The position numbers and the translations under genes are program-made. A stretch of 21,602 nt of DNA from Pigoraptor vietnamica (lineage: Eukaryota; Opisthokonta; Filasterea). Location of the stretch: the NCBI GenBank assembly GCA_943704525.1, contig CALSCQ010001025.1:1-21602 (forward strand), given 5' to 3'. Under the pieces are notes generated by a model. It searched no databases, was not told the origin of the DNA, and worked only from the letters and a program-made list of their open reading frames with translations. Shown piece by piece: positions 9,229 to 21,602 of the stretch (position 1 is the first letter of the stretch; each line of letters opens with the position of its first letter).

Positions 9229-11016
9229 TTAATCAATGAGTTTGCGCACGCGACTTAGCAATTTGCGATCAATACAGTAAGCCCGCATCACGCTCAGGAC
9301 GCATACGCGCTCAAGGCACGCCGCCCCTCGATTGATGTTGTTGCACTCGTTCAGTATCAGCGTGTGCACGCCGCCCAGCGCAGACACGTCCTTCACGTTG
9401 TTACAGCGAGTGAGGTTCAAGCGGTGCACGCCGCCAAGCATCGACACGTTGCGAACTTTCGTGTCCGTGAGGCAGAGGTCGTATACGCCGCCGAGCCGTG
9501 ACGATCGATTCCGGAGGCTGAGCCTGTGCACGCGCCCCAACGCAGACACATTCTTCACTTTGGTCCCCCTGAGCCGCAGCGTGTGCACGCGCCCGAGCAT
9601 GGAGACGTCGGAGATGTTGTTGAAACTAACGACCAGGACGCGAACATTGCCGAGTGCGGACACGTCCGTCACACACCCGTTGTGAAGAATGAGAGTGTGA
9701 ACCCGTCCCAGGCCGCTCGCGTCTTTGACGTTCGATTCGTAAAAATCCAGCGTGTGGCAGTTCGCGAGTGCAGAGACGCTGCTCTGCGGGGCGATATTCA
9801 GCCAACTCACACGCAGCGTGTGGATGCGGCCGAACGGCGTCACGTCCACCTTCGCGCTCTTGACGTCCGAACCTGTCAACCACAGCGTATGGCACCCACC
9901 GAACGCGCGGTACGCCGCGTCAGAGAACGTGGAATGAGGCGCGATGGTAAGCTCGTTCACGCTGTTCAGAGCCTCTACACCGGTCAGATTCATGGACTCG
10001 TTATCAATCGCAAGCGTGTGCCAAGGGACGACACGTCGAGAGTATCGACGCCACCGAGCGGATACGTCCGCCGCGCGCACACAGCCGATGAGGATGAGCG
10101 AGTGGACGCGCCCGGCAGCCACAACGTCGCAGAGATTGGGCGATTGGGCGAGGTTGAGAAAGTGGAGGGCGCCGAATTCGGGGGGGGGATCGAAACAAGG
10201 GACGAATTGCGCCACGACAGCGATCGGAGGTGCGTCGTAGACGGCAGCCCCCGAATGTCGCCGCAACCCGTGATCGACAGATTTCGCACGCTGACGAGGG
10301 CGCTGACGTCCACGCCCCGCATGCTCCCGAGTGCGACGGTGGTCGCGTCCTTAAGCGCAGACAGGTCGTGCGGCTGTCCGCCCGGCCGCGTACAATTGTG
10401 GAGTGTGACGCGCGGCACTCCCGCGACGCAGTTTAGGTCCGTCGTCACCATGCTCTGAAGCAAAACAGATCGCGCGTTGCGAAAGGCAGGCAGGCTAACC
10501 GGCGCCTTCGCCGTGCTGCCCAGACGGAGCACGCGCGCGCCGGCAAGGAGCGGCGCGTCCGCAGTGGTGGAATGTTACCGTGTGCACGTTGCGCAGACTG
10601 TCGAGAGAGGCATAGACCGCAGAGACGTCGTCGTCGGCCGGCCCAGTGCCTCCAAAGCTGTCACTCAAGTCCCAGGGCCAATACAGCTCTGAGTCATCGG
10701 ACCTGTAACTATCGAACATATCGCTCTTGGTCCTCACAATCGTCGCCGTGTGCACGGCCCGCGAACGCCTCGAGGCAAGCTTCTCGGTCGCATACGCGCG
10801 ATACGACGACAGCACGAGCCGATCGACGGGGATCCACCGCTTCAGTTCCTCCCGAAAGGCCGAGTCCTCGATGAACTGCTTGTTGTAGAGCGGCCACAGG
10901 CGGTACAGGCGCACGCGCGGCGTCGTCTTCGCAAGGGAGGCGACGTCGGCGTTCGACAGGTACGACGCAATGTGGCACAGCACGATCTCCGATGGGAGAT
11001 CGCCAAAGGACGCCAT
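9229..11016 (-). CDS. F-box leucine-rich-repeat protein, intronless, frame broken twice
   Basis: The ATG at 11016 opens a frame whose first 45 residues fit an F-box: LPSEIV at 7-12, then CHIASYLSNADVASLAKT. A spacer and then leucine-rich repeats follow. The frame runs to about 10557, where TGC-GGA is followed by one extra base; the next frame (10556 to about 10180) continues the repeats (APLLAGARVLRLG). At the run of nine G (10180-10188) it shifts again into the frame that ends at TAA 9231-9229. Read across the breaks the protein is about 594 residues. Late repeats are 20-22 residues with the consensus VHTLxLxxTxVxDVSALGR. Known F-box proteins bind SKP1 in SCF ubiquitin ligases and use repeats to hold substrate; that role is inferred here. 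No introns are needed, unlike HFM1. The breaks mean either a decaying gene or sequencing errors; the second is in a homopolymer, the first is not. Confidence 0.75.
9350..9720 (-). repeat. DNA-level repeats of the LRR array
   Basis: Read on the plus strand, GTGTGCACGC followed by CGCC and a GACAC or GAGAC block recurs about every 63 bases, matching the 21-residue protein unit VHTL...DVS. Similarity at the nucleotide level as well as the protein level suggests recent unit duplication or conversion. One unit near 9480-9530 lacks about seven residues (NRSS joined directly to RLGGVY), a partial unit loss. Confidence 0.7.
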
Positions 11017-11645
11017 TATAACACGCGCGTAAGGGCTGCAACGAGTGGAAGAACACACAGTAGTCACAGACGCAAAAAGGAGAAAACGGCGGGAAAAGGG
11101 CGGGAGCAGGGAAAGTATCACGTGATCGGCTAAGGTGCGGCTGTCCGGACACCACTCCGATATCCTAAAAAGGCGCGAGCAAAATATAAAAACGGTGGCT
11201 TCGCTCAAACGGCGCAAGCACACGCCCTGGCCTGTTCGGGCATTGTCGCGTGGCATTTCAGTTTCAGTGAGCATTCCGAAAGCGCGGGAGGCTGTGGGAG
11301 GGGGTGTGCCGAGTGCTGGATGAGGCGTCTGGCGGCCGACCCGACTGGTGCCCAGGCCATCCCACTGAGGCGGCGCCGGCTCGGCCGAGTGCAACTGAGA
11401 GGCCGGCACGGTTCAGTTCGCCAGCAACCGGACGGTCGCAGCGGTAGCAATAAGGCACGGAGCGTCGACCGAGATGGGTTCAGCGGGGGTTGCGTCAGTG
11501 CATAGTACTCTGATCGGCTCCGCTCGGCCACGCCAGCCGGCGAACTGAGCACCCGATCGCGAGTCCGGGTCCATCTCAGTGTCCGTACTCACAGAGGGTC
11601 TCCGCGGAAGACTTGCGCCGACCCAAGCGGATCGGCGGTGGCATA
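11017..11645. promoter_or_regulatory. Divergent 5' region between F-box/LRR gene and receptor gene
   Basis: These 629 bases should carry the promoters of two divergent genes. A 10-base palindrome ATCACGTGAT (11117-11126), an E-box/CACGTG type site, lies about 100 bases above the F-box ATG. The only TATA-like sequence, TATAAAAA, begins at 11185; it faces the receptor gene but could also serve the other strand in its AT-rich reverse form. No coding exon is evident. Confidence 0.4.
11117..11126. promoter_or_regulatory. CACGTG palindrome upstream of F-box/LRR gene
   Basis: ATCACGTGAT is a perfect 10-base palindrome with the bHLH/bZIP-type core CACGTG. Similar CACGTG cores occur elsewhere in the window inside coding sequence (for example 18757 and 21222), so the promoter position is what gives this copy any weight. 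Confidence 0.3.
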
Positions 11646-14600
11646 ATGCGGTGGCGTGCACACAGCCCCTCTTCCGCACGTGGTGCGCCTCTTTCCCTCC
11701 TTTTTTATGAATGTTCGCTCGTGTTGTGCGTCGTCGGACTCGTTGACGCGCATCAACTGCCCAATCGCGCGTCTGAAGGCACGCACGCCAGCGAACCACA
11801 AGCGCCCTCCATTCGAACGCTTGTGGAAAACGAAGTCGTCCGTCGTGCACGTGATGTGGACCTGGACCTCGCGGGAGAAATCGAGAGGCGATTGAACTCG
11901 AGCGCAGCGGCTTCTTCCGTGCTCATCAACCTCTCCACATGGGCCGGCGCGAGTGGCGCCGTTGAACTTTCGCATCCCGTGGCGGTGCGCGGCGAGGGAT
12001 TGACGCTCTCACTCGTTGGCGGAGAAGGAGAGATACGCTTGCAATTGCGGTGCGCGCTCGACTCGGATGCGGCCTCGGCGTTCACCGTATCGCAAGGCGC
12101 GCGACTAGAGGCACGCGGCGTCGCGTTCGAAGGGTGCGCGGTGCGCGTGGACGCAACTGGCGGAGGGGTGGATCTGTCACGGTGCGATTTTGCGACCTCT
12201 GCGTTTGCATTTGTGTGCGAGGGCGGCCACTCTGTCTTTGAGGCCGTTGTGTTTCGCCATTTCTCGAACGACACCGACGTCGGCGCCGAAATTTTCGGCG
12301 GGTCCCTTCTAGTCAATGGGACGGCGACGCTTTCGCTCAACGCCACTGTTTTCGAGAAAACGCGTGCGGTGCAGGGGGGCGCCGTCCGCGTCTTGGGCAA
12401 TGCGTCCGTGCGCGCCGTTAACACTTTGTTTTCAGAGTGTGCCGCGTGTGCGGGTGGCGCCGTTTACGTGGGCGACCATGCGTCGTTCCAGTGCACGGGA
12501 TGTGTGTTCAACGCAACGCGCGCGCGTGCAGAAAGCGAATGGAGAGAGTGCGAAGACCCCGCACTTACAGCGGGCGCCGGTTTCGGCGGTGCTCTTCATG
12601 CGGCAGAAAGCGCGTCCGTGAACATGTCGGACTCGACGCTGACACTCTGCGACGGGAAGTACGGCGCTGCCGTGTACGCCGAAGGTCGCGCGTCGCTTTC
12701 GCTCGCCAGTGTTCGCATCGCAGGAGGAGACGACACTGCCACGTGCGAGTACGGCTGCGCGTTTTACGTGACGCACTCCGCCGACCTCAACGCCTCGCAA
12801 TGTGAGTTCACGAGCCTTCGCGCACGCGTGTCGGCGGCCGTGGTGTTCGTCGGCGAATCTGCGTCCGTGTCTCTCTCCGACAGTACCTTATACGAAGCGA
12901 CCTCCATCCTCGGTGGAGGGGCCTTTGCGCTCCGGAACGCGGCATCCCTCTCCCTGTCGCGCGTGGTCGTGGGCGCAGTGACGGTCGGCTTCGGCTCTTC
13001 CGCCACTGCTGCGCTGCCCGCGCCCTGCCCACTTTCGGACGAAGCCGGTGATGGGGTCTTCGTGCGTGCGGAGGGCACTTCCACGGTGTCCCTGTCGCAC
13101 TGCTCCGTGGGCGTGCTCCTGAGCAGGTGTGGAAGTGGCGGCCTTGTGGCGGTGTTGGAGGGGGCGACGGTGCGTGTGTTCAACGCAAGCGTCGCCTCTT
13201 CATCCGCTCTACGCGGTGGCCTTCTCTCTGCGCGCGGCAATGCGACGGCGTGGCTGTCGGGCGTGTCGTGCGGACAGTGCCACGCGGGCCTCAGCGGCGG
13301 CCTGGCATATGTCACCGGCAGCGCGAACGTCTTGCTTGACAATGTCTCTGCCGACGGTGCCGTGGCGCGACTCGGCGGCGGCGCTTTCTGTTCGGACGGC
13401 CCCTCTTCGTTGCTCCGTGTCACTGGTGCCCGTGTGGCCTCGGCGATCGTCGATCCCTCCAAGTACGGTTCCTGGAATTCGTATCCCTCGAACGCGCCCG
13501 CGGACTTGCTCGGCGGCGGCGGCATTCTCTGCGCTTCTGGCGGCGCACGCGCGGACATTCGCGATGCCATTTCAGACTCCGTGTATTCGGCCGGCGATGC
13601 CGGCGCGGTGGTTGTGTCTGGACGCGCGTCTGTTACCGTCGCCCGCGTGCGCCTCTCCTATGCGATTGCTGCGCGCTCAGGAGGGTTTGCGAGCGTGCGC
13701 GGACGCGGCAAACTCGACGTGGAAGACATGGAGGGAGTGTCGTTCGCGGCAGTGGACCGCGGCGGTTTTGCCGAGATATCGGAAGAGGGCGCGCTGCGGG
13801 CGCGCAATGTGTCGCTAACGGCGTCTTCTTCGAACAGGTCGCTGGGCGGTTTCCTCCATGCCGCGGGTTCGAGCGCCGCTGCACTCGAGGCGATCGTCGT
13901 GGGATTCTGTGCCGCGCACGGCGGCGGCGGCTTTGTGAGTGCGGCGGACGGTGCACGCGTGGACATTTACGACGTGCGCCTGGACACCGCCGAAGTGATG
14001 GCACTGCAGCCCGCGGGCGTCGAGCTCGGGGGAGGGTTCGCGGCCGTTGTTGGCTCCGCGTCACTCAGTGCGATCGCCATCAGCGTCGGGGCGTCGCGCA
14101 GCAATTCGAATGGAGGGTTCTTCAGCACGCACGACAGCTCGACAGTCCGTGCGTCGGCGTGCAATGCAGTCGCAGCAACAGCCGCGGTCGACGGCGGATT
14201 CGCGTGTGCTGTGGGGCAATCGGTTGTTGTGCTAGATGGTGTGGGCGCGACGACTACAAGCGCGGCCCAAGGATCTGGCGGTGCGGTGTTTGCGGGCGAC
14301 TCTGCTCGTGTGGATGCGGCCAATATCACCTTCGCGCACTCTGGCGCGTGGATGGACGGCGGGGTGGCGGCGGTGCGAGGGTCCGCTAGCGTCTCGTTTA
14401 CGACTTGTTACGTTGCAGATGCGCAAGCGGGTCAGCGTGACGGCTTCGTTTCTGCGGTTGGCGGTGTCAATGTCACGTTGAGCGAGGTCAACGTCACGTC
14501 CTGCTCTTCGCTTTCCGACTGGGGCGGTTTCGCGGAGGCTGCGGGGGACGCCACGTTACTTGCCGTCGGGGTTACCGCGGGACGGACGGTGAGCGCCCTC

Positions 14601-17600
14601 AGCGGTGCCGTCGTGGCGGCACGTGACCGGGCGGTCGTGAACGTCGCGCGCGTGTCAGTGTCGAGCGCCTCTGCAGCGCGCGGATGCAGCGGATTTGTTG
14701 TGCGTGGGCGTGCAAGGCTGTCCATCGCGGGCCTCTCCATTGCCGACGTCGCGACCGGCAGCATGGACGGTTGGCTGTCTGCACCAAAGTATGCGACCGA
14801 CACATCGGACGTTAGAGTTGCCGTCGCACTCGCACGTGATGCGAGCATCGGTGCCTTCTGTGCGCGATTAGGCCTCGGGACGAGCGCGAGTGCACCTGCG
14901 CACTTCATTGTCGATTCGCCGCACGTGTGCTACAGCGTGCCACCCGCGGACGTGACATCCCTGCACATATCTGTGGACGATGACATCCCATTTGCTATGC
15001 CGCTGGGGGAGGCGCCCATAGGAGCGCCGTTTCTGCACCTCAGCGGGCCGACGTACTTTTTCCAAGGCGTGCTCGTGAACGGTGTGGTCGAAGTTACGTC
15101 CGCCGCGCGCGTTACGTTCCAGGGCACCGTCTTCCGCGACACTCCTACGGCGGTATCGGGCGAGGCGCTCTTCGACGGCTGCCTATTTCTCGGCAATTCG
15201 CTCGTGTCGCTCACTGGCTTGGGCCGCGCACTCTTCATCAACTGCACGTTTGACGGTGCAACGGTGGCGGGTTTTCTGTCGGCACGGGAAGCGACACTCG
15301 TGTCTCTCTTTGGGGGGTCCGTCACAGCCACTGCGTCAGCCACCGACGGCGGCTTTGCGCGCGTGGAAGGCATTGCATCGGTAGAGCTTGAGGGCGTGCA
15401 TGTGGCGGCGACTGAAGCTCTCGGAAGCGGCGGGTTCGTCCGCATGGGCAGCGGCGCGGCGGACGAATCGTCGCTGCTCTCCCTGCGAGAGTGTGTTGTG
15501 GAGCGTGGCGTGGCCGCGATGATGGGCGGTATTGTGCACGTCGCTCCCGGCAGCCACTTTGTCGACGTGTCCTCGATACGCGTGTTCAATGCCTCCGCGA
15601 AATATGGGGGGTTTGCGTCCCTGTCTCTCGGCGCATCGATCGCTGTGCTGAACGCGTCTATGGACAACTGCGCCGCGTCGGGCGATGGCGGTGTCTTTCA
15701 CTTTGACGGTGCGACCCGCGCCGTGATCACCTCTGTAACATCGACATCTCCCAGCGCTCGTGGAAGCGGCGGGTTCGTGTATTCTAGCGGTGCGCGTGGC
15801 ACCGAACTGCGTGTCACGGCCGCCGTGTTGAGGAATGCGCGCGCAGGTGGCGATGGTGGCGTTCTTGCAGCGAGTGGCCGTGACGATGTGCGCGTGACAC
15901 ATTCGCTCGTAGCAAATGCGTCGGCCGGAGGGTCAGGTGGCGTCGCGTACGTCGCGCCAGGGGAAGGAGGCCGCTTCTCTTTCGTCGGTTGCGACATTCA
16001 AACGGCCTCCGCGCTCGCTTCGGGCGGTGTTGCGCGTGTGTCTGGGCGCGCGCCGCTCTCCTTCGACGACTGCAGAATCCGTGACACCGCAGCCCTGGCG
16101 GATGGTGGCGTCGCTGCCATCGATGAGGGGACCTTGGCCGTGGTCACGTGCTCCATACGCTCCCCCGCCGCCGTGCAGGGCAGTGGCGGCGCATTCCACG
16201 CAAGGGGCGGTGAGATCGTGTTCAACGACACGTATGTCGCGGGCGCGCATGCGGCCCTCGGCGGTGGCGTGCTGTATCTCTCTGGGGCGTCTCGTGCCGT
16301 GTCGCGCAACGTAAGCGTCGACGCGGCCTCCTCCTCTCTCGACGGCGGTGCCGTCCTCCTCCTCTCCGGAACTTCGTCGCTCACTACCATTGACTGGCGC
16401 GTGCGTGGGGCGGTCGGAGAGACGTACGGCGCCGTGGCCGCGAGCGCTTTTGCGGTGGCCGTTGTTGTTGGAGCGCAGTTGTCCGACTGTGCCTGTGTCG
16501 GGGGACCGGGCGGCGCTGTGTCACTGCGTGGGAGTGCGCACGTGACGCTGACGGGCGTCCGCATTACGAATGCGTCGGCGGCGGCGGCGGGTGGGGGCAT
16601 CGCAGTCTCTGCGAAGGCACACTTGGATGCGTCGGACCTTTTTATCGACACGGCGCGCACGGACGGTGACGGCGGAGCGATTGCGCTGGAGAGGGACGCG
16701 ACCGTGTGCCTGAATAGCTCTGAAATTCGGTCGTCGGTTGCGAGCGGATCGGGCGGTGCTGTGGCTCTGAGGGGTTCCAGCGCGCTTATCGCTACCGGTA
16801 TGCTTGTTGTGCGTGCTCAGGCGAATACGGGCGGCGCGTTTTCTGTCGCGGACGGCTGCTCCCTTTCGCTTCGCGCCGGGCGTGTTGTCGATGCAACGTC
16901 CCTTGGCGATGGCGGCGGCTTGTATGCTCGCCGCGCCAACATCACTGTAGAGGACTCCGTGTTTGTCGAAAGCGTCGCCGGTGTGCTGCCATCCCTCGTG
17001 GGCGGCGGCGGATTCGCATACGTGGATGACCCGCTCTCCCTCCGCATGAGGAACGTGACTGTGGACGGCGCGACGGCGGCCCTCGGCCCGGTCGTGTACA
17101 CCGCCTCTGCAGTGTCCGCGAGCGCGAGCGCGCCGACGGAGGACGATGCCGTGCGTGGCGTTGTCGCGACGCGCTTTTCGGCGGCTTATTACACGGGAAG
17201 TGGCCCGCGCATGCTCGTTTCTCCGCCGGCGCGGCTCGCGACGACGGTAACGGGAGTGTCCGGACCGACCGGACTCGGGACGCTCGAAAGCGGCGGCCGC
17301 CTGCTTTCTGTCTTCGTTGAGGCCAGGGACGCGTACGGCAACGCCGCAATTTTCCCGCCATCCCATCCCTTTGGCGCGCGCCTGTTTGTTATGTCCGGAG
17401 ATTGTCTGCTTTCCGGAGACCTCTCGCGTGAGTTTCGACTTGGGTCGAATGTGTCGTTCACCGACGTGCGCGTGTCGGTGCGGACGGCGCTGTCCGGCCT
17501 TCGCAACACGCACTGTGAGGTGGGCTTCGCACCCACCGGTCCCCTCACCGCACTGGACGACCCCGTTCTCAAATCTTCCTTCGTCGTGGATGTCGCGCCG

Positions 17601-18356
17601 TGTGGGAGCGGCCGCACGCTCTCCGTCGAAACTGCCACGGGCCTGCTCGTCTGCGCACAGGGGCCCAGCAGCAGTAACGCGAACGCTGGGATAGTCGCGA
17701 CTGCGGTGGTCGTTCCGGTCGTTGTCGTTGCTTGCATTGCCGTCGTGGCCGTGTTCGTCGTGCGGCGTGAGCGCCAGAAGCGCACGCGCGAGTACCTCGA
17801 AGCATTTTCCAAGACACACCTGAGTACGCGACCGGCGCTCATGATGCTGGACATACCACGTGACCAGCTGGAGCTCGGAGAGACGCTGGGCGAGGGGCAG
17901 TTTGGCGTCGTGTACAGGGCGCAGGTACGTCGGTGTAATCGTATTCGTCTCGGTTAAGTGAGAACATGTATCTGCGTCGCGTGCGTATGTGCGTGTATCG
18001 CGCGAACGTATGGTGTGGAAGTGTGAGTTACCTGCGCGTGGATGCTCGTGTGTGTGCTGTATCCATTGGACGCCGACGGGGATCTCGCTGCGACTGCTCG
18101 GCAGGTGTTCGTCGACGGCCGCTTCCGAGTGTGCGCCGTCAAATCGCTCAAGGGAAACGCGAACGTCCAGGCGCGCGCCGAATTCCGTGGGTGTCGCCAG
18201 GCGTCAGAGCGGAGTCAGCCCAATGCGCGCGCTGAACGAACAATTCGCGTGTCTCAGTCTAGACTCGTCTATTTTGTCTACGGTATTCAGTTAGCTGACT
18301 CGTTTCTCCTTCCTCACACATACTACCGACACTATGACCCAGTCGCTGAAGCGGAG
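11646..18356 (+). CDS. Giant beta-helix receptor with truncated kinase domain
   Basis: Exon 1 (11646-17924) encodes 2093 residues without interruption. The ATG at 11646 starts a signal peptide: basic start, hydrophobic core LSLLFYECSLVLCVVGL, likely cut after VDA. The ectodomain is two solenoids of about 27 and 21 units, each about 34 residues with GGx(F/V/L) and an A/S-V-x-V strand, typical of pectin-lyase-like right-handed beta-helices. They are separated at about residues 1045-1200 by a non-repeat stretch resembling the N-terminal cap. N-x-S/T sites are frequent. A segment with DAYGN near residue 1897 looks Ig/filamin-like. One membrane helix spans 2015-2039, then RRERQKR. The kinase begins LGETLGEGQFGVVYRAQ (glycine loop 2082-2087). 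Exon 2 (18105-18186) carries VCAVKSLKG with the beta3 lysine. A likely exon 3 from 18343 adds LAEAE (helix C Glu). No HRD or DFG motif follows in the window. Known relatives are receptor kinases of the TK/TKL groups; the ligand is unknown. As it stands the kinase cannot be active. Confidence 0.8.
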
Positions 18357-18498
18357 GTGCGTACATGCCATGGCTGCCGTTCGCAGCCTCTTCAATGCAC
18401 CTGTGGTCAGCCTCGCATTGCGCATTCCCAATATCGGTGCGCTTGCCGAACCCCCCCCCCCCCCACCCCCCCTCCCCTCTCTCTCTCATCCACCACAC
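18357..18498 (+). other. Break zone after the partial kinase, with C14 tract
   Basis: After the helix C start, a kinase-like fragment (MAAVRSLFNAPVVSLAL, 18370-18420) appears in a different frame with no AG to splice to it in phase. It resembles the end of helix C and strand beta4. A run of 14 C (18451-18464), a C7 run and a CT tract follow. The remaining 200 or so residues of a kinase domain are not found on either strand. This is either a real truncation or a wrong join at the homopolymer. Confidence 0.55.
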
Positions 18499-21400
18499 AT
18501 GCCAGACAACGAAGTGATGTCTCCGCAGTCTCGCTCGCATTTCTTCTCGGCGGATGCCCCCCTCTCGTTTGCCGATCTCGGCCCGTCGGCATCGTCGTCT
18601 TCCGCTTCGTCCCTCTACGAACAGAGCGTGCTGCCGGACCTCTTCGACGACCCCTTTGGCTTCACGGAGTCAAACTACAAGTCTTTTGCGGGTCTTGAGA
18701 GCGGAGTGTCGCGCCGCGGAGGCGTCCTGGAGGCGCCTTCTTCGGCGTCGTCGTCACGTGACGCGACGGGTGGCGGTGTCGACCGCGACGATGGTCCCGT
18801 TGGCGTATTTGCAAACAGTGCCGCGCATTCATCCGCTTCACGCAGCGAGACGGTTGCGCAGCGCCTCTTGCGCCTTGAGCGCGACGAGCTGGCGGAGCTT
18901 CTTCACTGGCGGCCGTCGTTTTCAATGGGCGAGGCCGTGCAAGCGCCCGTCGCGACCCTGGGCGCATCTCCCCCGCAGGAGGCATTCGTCGTCGGCGCGT
19001 TTGCCGATCGCGTGCAGCTCGAAGGCCCGCCCGTCGCTCGCCCCGCTTTCGCCCAGCCGCCCGTTGTTGTGCGCGCGGCCGCGCTGTCGGACACGGCTTC
19101 GAACGCCAGCCGTCTTGCGGAGCAGCGCTTCCTCGAGCTGACGCAGCGCCACCTGTTGCGCGGGTCGCGTGGGCCTGCGCAACCCGTCGAGCGAGAGCCG
19201 TCTTCGGGCCGCGTCCGCCCATCGCCCGCCGCCGCTTCCGACCCCACTGCAGCCCCGGATGCATCGACGGTGTTCCCGTGGCTTGCGCGGTGGCGGCGCC
19301 CTATTGAGTATGACGAAGAGGATGATCCGGAGGAGGTCCAGGGGGGCACCGAAGGAGGAGGCGGCGGCGGCGGCGGCGGCGGCGGCGACGGGTGGACGCA
19401 CTGGCGGAGCGCTGCCCCGGCGCTCGTCTCTGCCGTCAACGAGGCTGCGACGGCAGCCACGGAGCCACGCGAGCGAGCCAGCGGAACGGCTGCTGATGAT
19501 GAGAGCGCGGAATACGACAGCGATTGGGAGACAGCGAGTGACGAGGAGCACGGTTCCGCCGGGGTTGTCGAGAGGACGCGCCGCGCGGCGGAGGAAGAGG
19601 GACTGAGCGCAGTCCACGCGCAACTGGAGGCCATTGATCGCCAGCTGTCGGCTTACGCAGCCGCGCGGGCTGCCGAAGCGGCGCCGACAGCGCAGCAGGC
19701 ACCTTCGTCGCCGTCACGTGCCAGAGACCACTCGTCCCATCGCACGGTGCGCTCGCCGTCACCCTCGCGTGATCGAGAGGGACTTCACCACGGTTCCCCG
19801 CGGGCGCAGAGGGCGCGCACTGATGAGGTCGCGCCGCCTTCCGTGCCGCTGCTGGCAGAGTCGTCGTCTGCGCACGTAGGTCGCGGGGAGTGGTGGCGCC
19901 AGGATCGACCTCGGCGCGAGGCCGCCCACGCGAGCCAGCAGGCGACGCAGAGCCGTATCGGTGAACAGGTGCGCCGCGTGGAGGAGGGCTACGGATTGCT
20001 GGCGCAGCTCGAGGCCATCGACGCGGAGGTGGAGGGTATGACGCGCGAGCTGGAAGCGGCTGCGGCCGGTGCGCCCACGCGCGCGAGCCGCACGCTCGTG
20101 GCGGACTTTGTCGACTTGCAGGATCGCCTGTCGTCGATACGCACCCGCTTATCAGCGTCTGGCCTGGAGGGCGGAGGGGAGGCTGCGGCAGTGCCAGCGC
20201 CACAGCGCGCACATTCGACGTCGCCGTCGCGTGCCGATGCGGGCGCGTCGAACGGCGTGCCGCACGCTGACGACCGTGCCGCCGGTGACGGTGACGGGGA
20301 GAGCGACGAAGACGACTTGCCGCTCCTCATGACGAGCGAAGACGATTCCATGCCGGAACTCACGTACGACTCGGACACTTCTGACGGCGATTGGGCTTCG
20401 CTCGCGGCAGAGCTTTCCAGCGCGCACGCGCGTGCCAACGCCGCCCGCGCCGCTGCGTCCCGCGTTCCGCACGTGGCGCCTTCGGCCGCGCGCATTTGGA
20501 GCGACGGCGAGACCTCGGACGAGAGCGATTCGGACACCGAAGGGAGCGACGTGCCTGATCTCGTGACGTCGAGTGACGACGACGCAGGGGCCGATGTGCT
20601 GCCCGCGCAGGCGTCGCCGCGCGCGAGGGCTTCGCGGGGGTTGTACACGGTGTGGAGCCGCGCCTATCTCGAGCGGCAGATGGACCTGGAGGTGGACGAG
20701 GTGCCCGAGCTGGTGACGTCATCAGAAGAGGATTCCGAGGGCGAGAACATGATACAGGAACTCGTGCGGCAGCTGCGCCCATCGCGACACGCGCGGGTGA
20801 CGCCGTTCAGTGCGCTGTCGGACGACGGGTCGGAATCGGAAGGCATGTCGGAAAACAGCGAGGATTACGAGACGGACAATGATGGCGACGATGACGATGG
20901 TGAAGAGAGCGGCGAAGAGAACCCTCCCAGAATGCGTCACCGTGACGACACGAACGATGCGCACTCCCCCTTTGGCCCGGTGATGTCCCTGCGCGAACTG
21001 TTGGACGTCATTGACTCGATACGGGCGCACCATTGGACGGACCCGCTGGCGCCGCGGCCGAGAGAGGCGGCGAGTCGGCGTCGCGCGGTTCCCCAGCGTC
21101 GAAGCGAGCCGGACGCGGAAACGCTCGCGAGGTGTCGCCGCACGCGCGACCGGTGCGACCACCGCCGGCGCGAGTTTTTGCAGGGCGTTCGCGCGCGCAA
21201 TTTCCCGGGAGGGGCGCACGGTCACGTGACGAAGACGGCCGAAGCGCCGGTCGAGTTTTTCGTGTCTGCGCGTCCGCCGTCGCCTGCGAAGGCGCGGCAC
21301 ACGGTTCCTCCGCGCGCAGTGTGTGCCGACAGTGACGATGAGACGAGCGGCGGCGTCGTTGCATCTGCCTCAACTGCGGGCGCTGTGGCCGATGGTGCTC

Positions 21401-21602
21401 TTGAAGCCAGCGCCTGCGGGATCGATGGGCAGAACGAGGCTTGCGTGGACGCCGTAGAGTATGTGCGGTGCATTTCGGCCGAGGGCGAGGAATTCTTTGT
21501 GCCCCGGCGGGTGATGTGCCACTCGCAGCTGGCGCGGCGAATGCTAGACGGAGGTAAGTATGGTCAGCTCACAACCTACCCACCACCACCACCCCAGATC
21601 GG
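18499..21602 (+). CDS. Acidic disordered protein with C-terminal Elongin-C-like domain (partial, 3' end outside window)
   Basis: The frame is open from ATG 18499 to a GTAAGT donor at 21554 (1018 codons plus one base). An alternative is that CTCCGCAG (18521-18528) is an acceptor and the true start lies upstream. Most of the protein is low complexity: Ser/Ala/Arg/Pro-rich at first, a poly-Gly run coded by (GGC)n near 19351-19389, two related coiled-coil segments both containing QLEAID (about 19610-19670 and 19990-20060), then acidic blocks with four copies of a P-x-L motif followed by Ser/Asp/Glu. The last 32 residues (987-1018), YVRCISAEGEEFFVPRR onward to LARRMLDG, match the start of Elongin C (human YVKLISSDGHEFIVKRE...) strand for strand. 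Elongin C links Elongin B, VHL/SOCS-box substrate receptors and cullin in ubiquitin ligases, and is normally a free protein of about 112 residues. A possible 44-base intron would end at CCCCAG 21597. The rest of the domain lies beyond the window. Confidence 0.65.
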   Translation, partial: MPDNEVMSPQSRSHFFSADAPLSFADLGPSASSSSASSLYEQSVLPDLFDDPFGFTESNYKSFAGLESGVSRRGGVLEAPSSASSSRDATGGGVDRDDGPVGVFANSAAHSSASRSETVAQRLLRLERDELAELLHWRPSFSMGEAVQAPVATLGASPPQEAFVVGAFADRVQLEGPPVARPAFAQPPVVVRAAALSDTASNASRLAEQRFLELTQRHLLRGSRGPAQPVEREPSSGRVRPSPAAASDPTAAPDASTVFPWLARWRRPIEYDEEDDPEEVQGGTEGGGGGGGGGGGDGWTHWRSAAPALVSAVNEAATAATEPRERASGTAADDESAEYDSDWETASDEEHGSAGVVERTRRAAEEEGLSAVHAQLEAIDRQLSAYAAARAAEAAPTAQQAPSSPSRARDHSSHRTVRSPSPSRDREGLHHGSPRAQRARTDEVAPPSVPLLAESSSAHVGRGEWWRQDRPRREAAHASQQATQSRIGEQVRRVEEGYGLLAQLEAIDAEVEGMTRELEAAAAGAPTRASRTLVADFVDLQDRLSSIRTRLSASGLEGGGEAAAVPAPQRAHSTSPSRADAGASNGVPHADDRAAGDGDGESDEDDLPLLMTSEDDSMPELTYDSDTSDGDWASLAAELSSAHARANAARAAASRVPHVAPSAARIWSDGETSDESDSDTEGSDVPDLVTSSDDDAGADVLPAQASPRARASRGLYTVWSRAYLERQMDLEVDEVPELVTSSEEDSEGENMIQELVRQLRPSRHARVTPFSALSDDGSESEGMSENSEDYETDNDGDDDDGEESGEENPPRMRHRDDTNDAHSPFGPVMSLRELLDVIDSIRAHHWTDPLAPRPREAASRRRAVPQRRSEPDAETLARCRRTRDRCDHRRREFLQGVRARNFPGGAHGHVTKTAEAPVEFFVSARPPSPAKARHTVPPRAVCADSDDETSGGVVASASTAGAVADGALEASACGIDGQNEACVDAVEYVRCISAEGEEFFVPRRVMCHSQLARRMLDGGKYGQLTTYPPPPPQI
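19351..19389 (+). repeat. (GGC)n trinucleotide repeat coding poly-Gly
   Basis: GGA GGA followed by an unbroken series of GGC codons gives about twelve glycines in the acidic protein. Such a tract is prone to length change. Confidence 0.85.
20314..20739 (+). repeat. Four copies of an acidic P-x-L short motif
   Basis: Copies read DLPLLMTSEDDS and SMPELTYDSDTS (20314-20379), DVPDLVTSSDDD (20548-20583) and EVPELVTSSEED (20698-20733). The shared form is a small hydrophobic patch P-(D/E/L)-L-(V/M)-T followed at once by Ser and acidic residues. This resembles SUMO-interacting or CK2-phosphorylated motifs, but that reading is inference. Confidence 0.65.

Follow-up and report, generated by a model that had tools for sequence, protein, structure and literature searches.

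A lysine-depleted, probably disordered chain joined to an Elongin-C-like domain: a likely fused gene in the filasterean Pigoraptor vietnamica

The window analyzed here was an entire contig of the Pigoraptor vietnamica genome (CALSCQ010001025.1, C409; 21,602 bases), in an assembly of 32.5 Mb and 1395 contigs (GCA_943704525.1). Toward its 3' end lies a long exon (18499..21553, + strand; 1018 codons plus one base, phase 1), as seen from frame, codon-bias and donor evidence. The exon likely belongs to a single fused gene, which would encode a chain of about 1000 residues that is mostly disordered, contains helices, is depleted of lysine and continues, after splicing at its far end, into a Skp1/BTB/POZ domain of the Elongin C type. 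That the exon end is homologous to the Elongin C type is very probable. That the fused gene works as a hub linked to a ubiquitin ligase is a more tentative proposal, based on sequence features.

The Elongin-C-like part occupies 21457..21553 (+), which corresponds to residues 987-1018 and a split Gly codon, and has the order strand, turn, strand, helix. A separate, normal Elongin C gene, suggested as a check when the match was first proposed, was found in the genome on contig C123; it is complete, with three exons and 107 residues. Residues 987-1018 aligned without gaps to this free Elongin C, with 12 of 32 positions identical, which bears out the match claimed by the sequence-only reading. The score was 60 (p 2e-6 with a 55-residue fragment, 4e-7 with 36 residues) and was reached by none of 20,000 shuffles of the 55-residue fragment compared with the same protein. 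Human Elongin C scored 57 against the fragment. Lower scores were obtained with the genome's own Skp1 (39, reached by 13 of 20,000 shuffles; p 2.5e-4) and with four of its BTB domains, out of 13 BTB matches (21-30; lowest p 0.02, over 7 residues). What we take to be the yeast Elc1 sequence scored 38, and seven alignment columns were invariant among this sequence, the own and human Elongin C and the window. These lower scores led us to reject a BTB or Skp1 identity in place of Elongin C, with Skp1 possible as a more distant cousin. AlphaFold, run here and below on single sequences without relatives, agreed with the fold expected of the exon end: it placed strands at residues 988-992 and 998-1002 and helices at 1003-1008 and 1010-1017, with a low predicted local distance difference test score (pLDDT) of 46-61 for the block. 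When 85 residues were modeled, the hairpin recurred at pLDDT 76-80, together with a four-residue helix.

The Elongin C match stops at a splice donor (21554). The frame had been described as open to 21602; instead, the exon closes at 21553 with a GTAAGT donor, followed by a phase-1 intron, of which 49 bases (21554..21602, +) are present before the contig ends. The GTAAGT hexamer is not rare, as six occur in the window. A phase-1 intron is common to the own Elongin C, the own Skp1 and the window, where it lies 5, 3 and 4 codons, respectively, past a shared Met according to a by-eye count. The intron follows the first helix, and its position in the window is offset by one codon from that in the own Elongin C and from that in the own Skp1.

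Upstream of the match, 986 codons are open in the same frame. No stop was found in the 1019 codons from 18499, as had been claimed; base shuffles (n = 500) gave a mean of 22.7 stops and a minimum of 11. The guanine plus cytosine (GC) content by codon position in the exon frame was 0.735, 0.571 and 0.749. Coding potential was scored as codon log-odds with a model trained on 25 long, mechanically called open reading frames (ORFs; 16,216 codons) from 200 kb of the own genome. It was read in 240-base blocks, 13 of which start between 18496 and 21376, the last one overrunning the donor. The exon frame was positive in 12 of the 13 blocks and the other two forward frames were negative in all 13. Reverse frames were positive in four blocks, always lower there than the ORF frame. 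The sole negative block of the ORF frame (19696; -0.11) was the one in which two reverse frames were slightly higher (-0.10 and -0.04). The ATG at 18499 is the likeliest start, with another in-frame ATG at 18334. A start near 18499 is supported by the block ahead of 18496, which was negative (-0.10). Scans with Rfam and for transfer RNAs found nothing, and a search of 18300-18700 for bacterial promoters and terminators, which is ill-suited to a eukaryote, was also empty.

The alternative is that two adjoining genes, or exons of separate transcripts, share one frame by chance and that the Elongin-C-like exon is part of a separate short gene, with its first exon or an acceptor a little upstream. 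Elongin C is usually a small, free adaptor, which normally links a cullin to many separate receptors, and a separate gene would be in keeping with this. The coding signal is also weak directly ahead of the domain, at 0.10 bits per codon over 21301-21456, compared with 0.29 for the Elongin-C-like part itself. However, the frame continues uninterrupted past the join, where neither of the other forward frames is positive (-0.02 and -0.60). The nearest in-frame Met upstream of the domain is residue 829 (20983), and the following 157 codons up to the match have none, so a free-standing protein would need a splice acceptor in this interval. By eye, the AGs at 21300-21457 do not have a clear pyrimidine tract ahead of them. 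We regard two genes as improbable and a single fused gene as likely.

The long chain is probably disordered over most of its length, as judged from the AlphaFold model, in which 814 of 1019 residues were at pLDDT below 50 and the mean was 42; with single-sequence input, a low pLDDT is weak evidence for disorder. Two coiled-coil segments containing QLEAID had been noted, and these were recovered at residues 375 and 503, both spanned by predicted helices with a block mean pLDDT of 53-85. The helix with the first QLEAID (19621-19638) covers residues 352-394 (19552..19680, +) and the helices with the second (20005-20022) cover residues 465-524 and 528-553 (19891..20157, +). Four P-x-L motifs were likewise present. 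The pattern [VLM]P[DEL]L[VMT], which was composed after the motifs had been seen, matched at residues 607, 618, 685 and 735, compared with 0.02 matches per shuffle and a maximum of two in 5000 shuffles. The first two motifs are LPLLM at 607 and MPELT at 618 (20317..20364, +), the third is VPDLV followed by TSSDDD (20551..20565, +) and the fourth is VPELV followed by TSSEED (20701..20715, +). TS or DS and an acidic residue follow three of the motifs, and TSEDD follows one. The description of the chain as acidic was correct mainly for residues ~560-800, but ~820-930 are net basic; over the whole chain, D+E amount to 176 and K+R to 104. Patterns for SUMO interaction, LC3-interacting regions (LIR), CK2-type sites and basic runs occurred in the ORF within 1.5 standard deviations of shuffles. 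A Pfam match to DUF6384 over residues 335-784 (E 0.5) was weak and taken as chance. Fold comparison of the whole model gave 116 matches at E <=10 and none at E 0.001, and it carries no weight because the mean pLDDT is 42.

The chain is also nearly devoid of lysine. There are only three lysines in 1019 residues (0.29%), at positions 61, 912 and 931, compared with 101 arginines and with 15.7 lysines expected under an independent-position model of the same DNA. The 850 residues from 62 to 911 (18682..21231, +) are free of lysine. The longest lysine-free run was at most 375 residues in a background set of 66 mechanically called ORFs of at least 250 residues from 200 kb of the own genome, and 358 in the receptor ORF upstream of the exon. 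The scarcity extends into the fold: at the three positions where human Elongin C has lysine in the matched stretch (YVK, IVK and TIK), the window has R, P and R. By the definition in the consulted part of PMC10665810, by which a lysine desert is a lysine-free stretch that spans 150 residues or more, or no less than half of the sequence, the 850 residues form such a desert and make up 83% of the 1019. As a separate observation, a frame on C123 (2583-5171 of 20001-30000, - strand; L021) encodes a T-box protein (E 1.9e-43), the long start of which is rich in Pro, Ala and Tyr, poor in lysine and lysine-free for 375 residues.

Besides the weak codon signal just ahead of the domain, several results weigh against a fused gene with a role in ubiquitylation. 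Only about one third of the domain is visible, and a second exon was not found genome-wide with either the third exon of the own Elongin C (protein search) or Skp1_POZ. With 36 residues of the exon end, Pfam at E <=10 returned only Skp1_POZ, below the cut-off (E 0.11); it returned nothing with 55 residues at E 0.1 or with the last 235 residues at E 10. In a phmmer search of PDB, human Elongin C ranked last of four matches (E 0.96). The three that scored better, two designed repeat proteins and a cytochrome oxidase subunit, were taken as chance or as sums over repeats. Nothing points directly to ligase function, as the ORF has no BC-box. No paralogue was found in the genome at E 1, the window being the sole match among the 10 best candidates scored, and a family of such fusions in the own genome was rejected on this result. 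None of nine pattern matches in viral contigs was confirmed as a relative. A SOCS-box search of the genome was empty but uninformative, as its controls were silent as well. Lysine is also scarce elsewhere in this GC-rich genome: 11 of the 2111 residues are lysine in the receptor ORF upstream, one of the 66 background ORFs is lysine-free (335 residues; perhaps not a gene) and four others of 266-470 residues contain 0.34-0.43%, close to the value seen here. Genome composition thus accounts for part of the depletion.

Two other searches were silent on the domain: the fragment as a protein query missed the own Elongin C at E 10, and the window was absent from the matches of a genome search with Skp1_POZ, which were confined to C340, C123 and C135. 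The fragment alone is thus not significant in library searches, and its weight rises because of the gene structure, since the match ends at a donor and the intron there agrees in phase, and almost in place, with introns of the own Elongin C and Skp1. A chance match was rejected not through those non-significant searches but on the shuffles, the intron and the order of scores, in which Elongin C exceeds Skp1 and Skp1 exceeds BTB. The assembly breaks off with the fold incomplete, which leaves the fusion likely but short of proof; a DNA search of the assembly with the contig end gave no match elsewhere.

BTB proteins became single-chain hubs for Cul3, and the fused gene could have a comparable arrangement. 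Downstream exons would complete the domain, which would dock on the kind of partner that Elongin C has: a cullin, Elongin B or a BC-box protein. Clients or further copies may be recruited through the disordered chain, which contributes the helices and the four acidic P-x-L motifs, and the lack of lysine could spare the hub from ubiquitylation by its own machinery. Judged from these sequence features, a cullin-adaptor role is plausible, and a ubiquitin-ligase-linked hub is a reading that we favor only tentatively. The strongest form of the proposal seems doubtful: an adaptor with a client-recruiting arm of its own would combine the tasks of adaptor, receptor and scaffold in one protein, and the loss of lysine, including in the Elongin C domain, would protect it from its own ligase. 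If the hub exists, an Elongin C adaptor can become a dedicated hub on a single chain while the genome keeps an intact free copy, and the lysine loss in both fold and arm would provide a clean natural test of the idea that proteins of the ubiquitin system lose lysines to escape modification.

Another possible explanation is that the domain is real and fused but binds and stabilizes a signaling partner, such as a kinase, and does not serve a ubiquitin ligase. The analogy is with SPARKEL of Toxoplasma gondii (TGGT1_291010). According to the consulted part of PMC11321763, this protein of 23 kDa carries at its C-terminus a SKP1/BTB/POZ domain that resembles Elongin C. There, SPARKEL is described as forming complexes with the kinase SPARK, and pull-down and proximity experiments showed no obvious members of stable ubiquitin ligases. 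In Pigoraptor, the usual job of Elongin C is already covered by the own free Elongin C, and the genome is rich in receptor-kinase-like genes, with 59 matches including the window's own. On the other hand, the sequence names no kinase partner, and the near absence of lysine better suits a protein of the ubiquitin system. This analogy with SPARKEL makes such a partner-binding role conceivable, although we consider it rather unlikely, and the ubiquitin-linked hub remains the preferred reading.

Other pathway components were also located in the genome. A Skp1 gene containing introns is on C340, and cullin matches are on C100 and C1316; the C100 match is nearest to Cullin-1 in PDB and the C1316 match was left unclassed. 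The BTB matches are spread over 11 contigs. A single-exon Skp1-like protein unlike the C340 Skp1 was noted on C135 (1195-1683 of the stretch L004). It adjoins a frame that, by reading, looks like a phosphoesterase, and the locus may be viral or foreign DNA.

The gene immediately upstream in the window (11613-18356, +; end read by eye) is large and encodes a beta-helix (Pfam Beta_helix), a transmembrane segment and the start of a kinase. It ends in the N-lobe at ~18356, and neither strand has catalytic exons from there to the end of the contig. Queries derived from the paralogue L010, which itself holds catalytic exons within ~1.4 kb, found such exons in both other paralogues tested (also within ~1.4 kb) and did not find them in the window. 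A PK_Tyr_Ser-Thr exon is present in the genome, with a catalytic loop that we take to be tyrosine-kinase-like. Together with the T-box protein, this exon suggests an opisthokont protist, perhaps a filasterean. Because the upstream gene is cut short, truncation or a misjoin is possible. A run of poly-C and pyrimidines at ~18450-18489, just 5' of ATG 18499, may be part of a promoter, serve as an acceptor tract or mark a join made in assembly. Both observations would fit a broken or misassembled piece, with an unrelated join near 18357-18498 or a decaying region, in which case the fusion would be unexpressed. However, the suspect site is upstream of the exon, and 18499-21553 is free of stops with codon bias throughout nearly all of its blocks, so we consider this explanation very improbable. 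Farther upstream on the reverse strand (9229-11409, -), frames resembling an F-box (E 0.013) and leucine-rich repeats (E 1.5e-5), below the Pfam cut-off, carry a repeated VHTLxL.

Compared with free Elongin C (ELOC; Skp1_POZ, PF03931), the window has the same first two strands and helix and an intron of equal phase one codon apart. One difference is in length: the own Elongin C has 107 residues and the human chain in PDB has 112, whereas 986 residues precede the match in the window. In its lysine depletion, the chain resembles known proteins. Lysine deserts are reported as prevalent among disordered ubiquitin-system proteins and are called evolutionarily conserved in the consulted part of PMC10169902, and those of VHL and SOCS1 were investigated, with Arg-to-Lys changes in assays of ubiquitylation and turnover, in PMC10665810, which was also seen in part. 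BAG6, UBQLN1 and RAD23A (PMC10169902) and VHL and SOCS1 (PMC10665810) share with the window a long lysine-free or lysine-poor stretch and a tie to ubiquitin. These proteins are ubiquitin-like (UBL) shuttles or cullin-RING receptors, and none is an Elongin C adaptor.

The sequence-only reading knew of no described protein with such a long N-terminal extension on Elongin C. In the consulted portions of the literature on Elongin C fusions, paralogues and extensions, we noticed no long, lysine-poor case of this kind beside an intact free copy. The architecture does have one precedent, since SPARKEL combines an extension with a C-terminal Elongin-C-like domain at only 23 kDa (PMC11321763, in part). 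SPARKEL thus indicates that such a domain at the C-terminus of a longer chain was already known. Both are protist proteins with an Elongin-C-like domain behind an N-terminal extension, a likeness of layout. In contrast to the window, the frame of which exceeds 1000 residues, SPARKEL is a small protein of apicomplexans and their relatives with a partner kinase, SPARK (PMC11321763).

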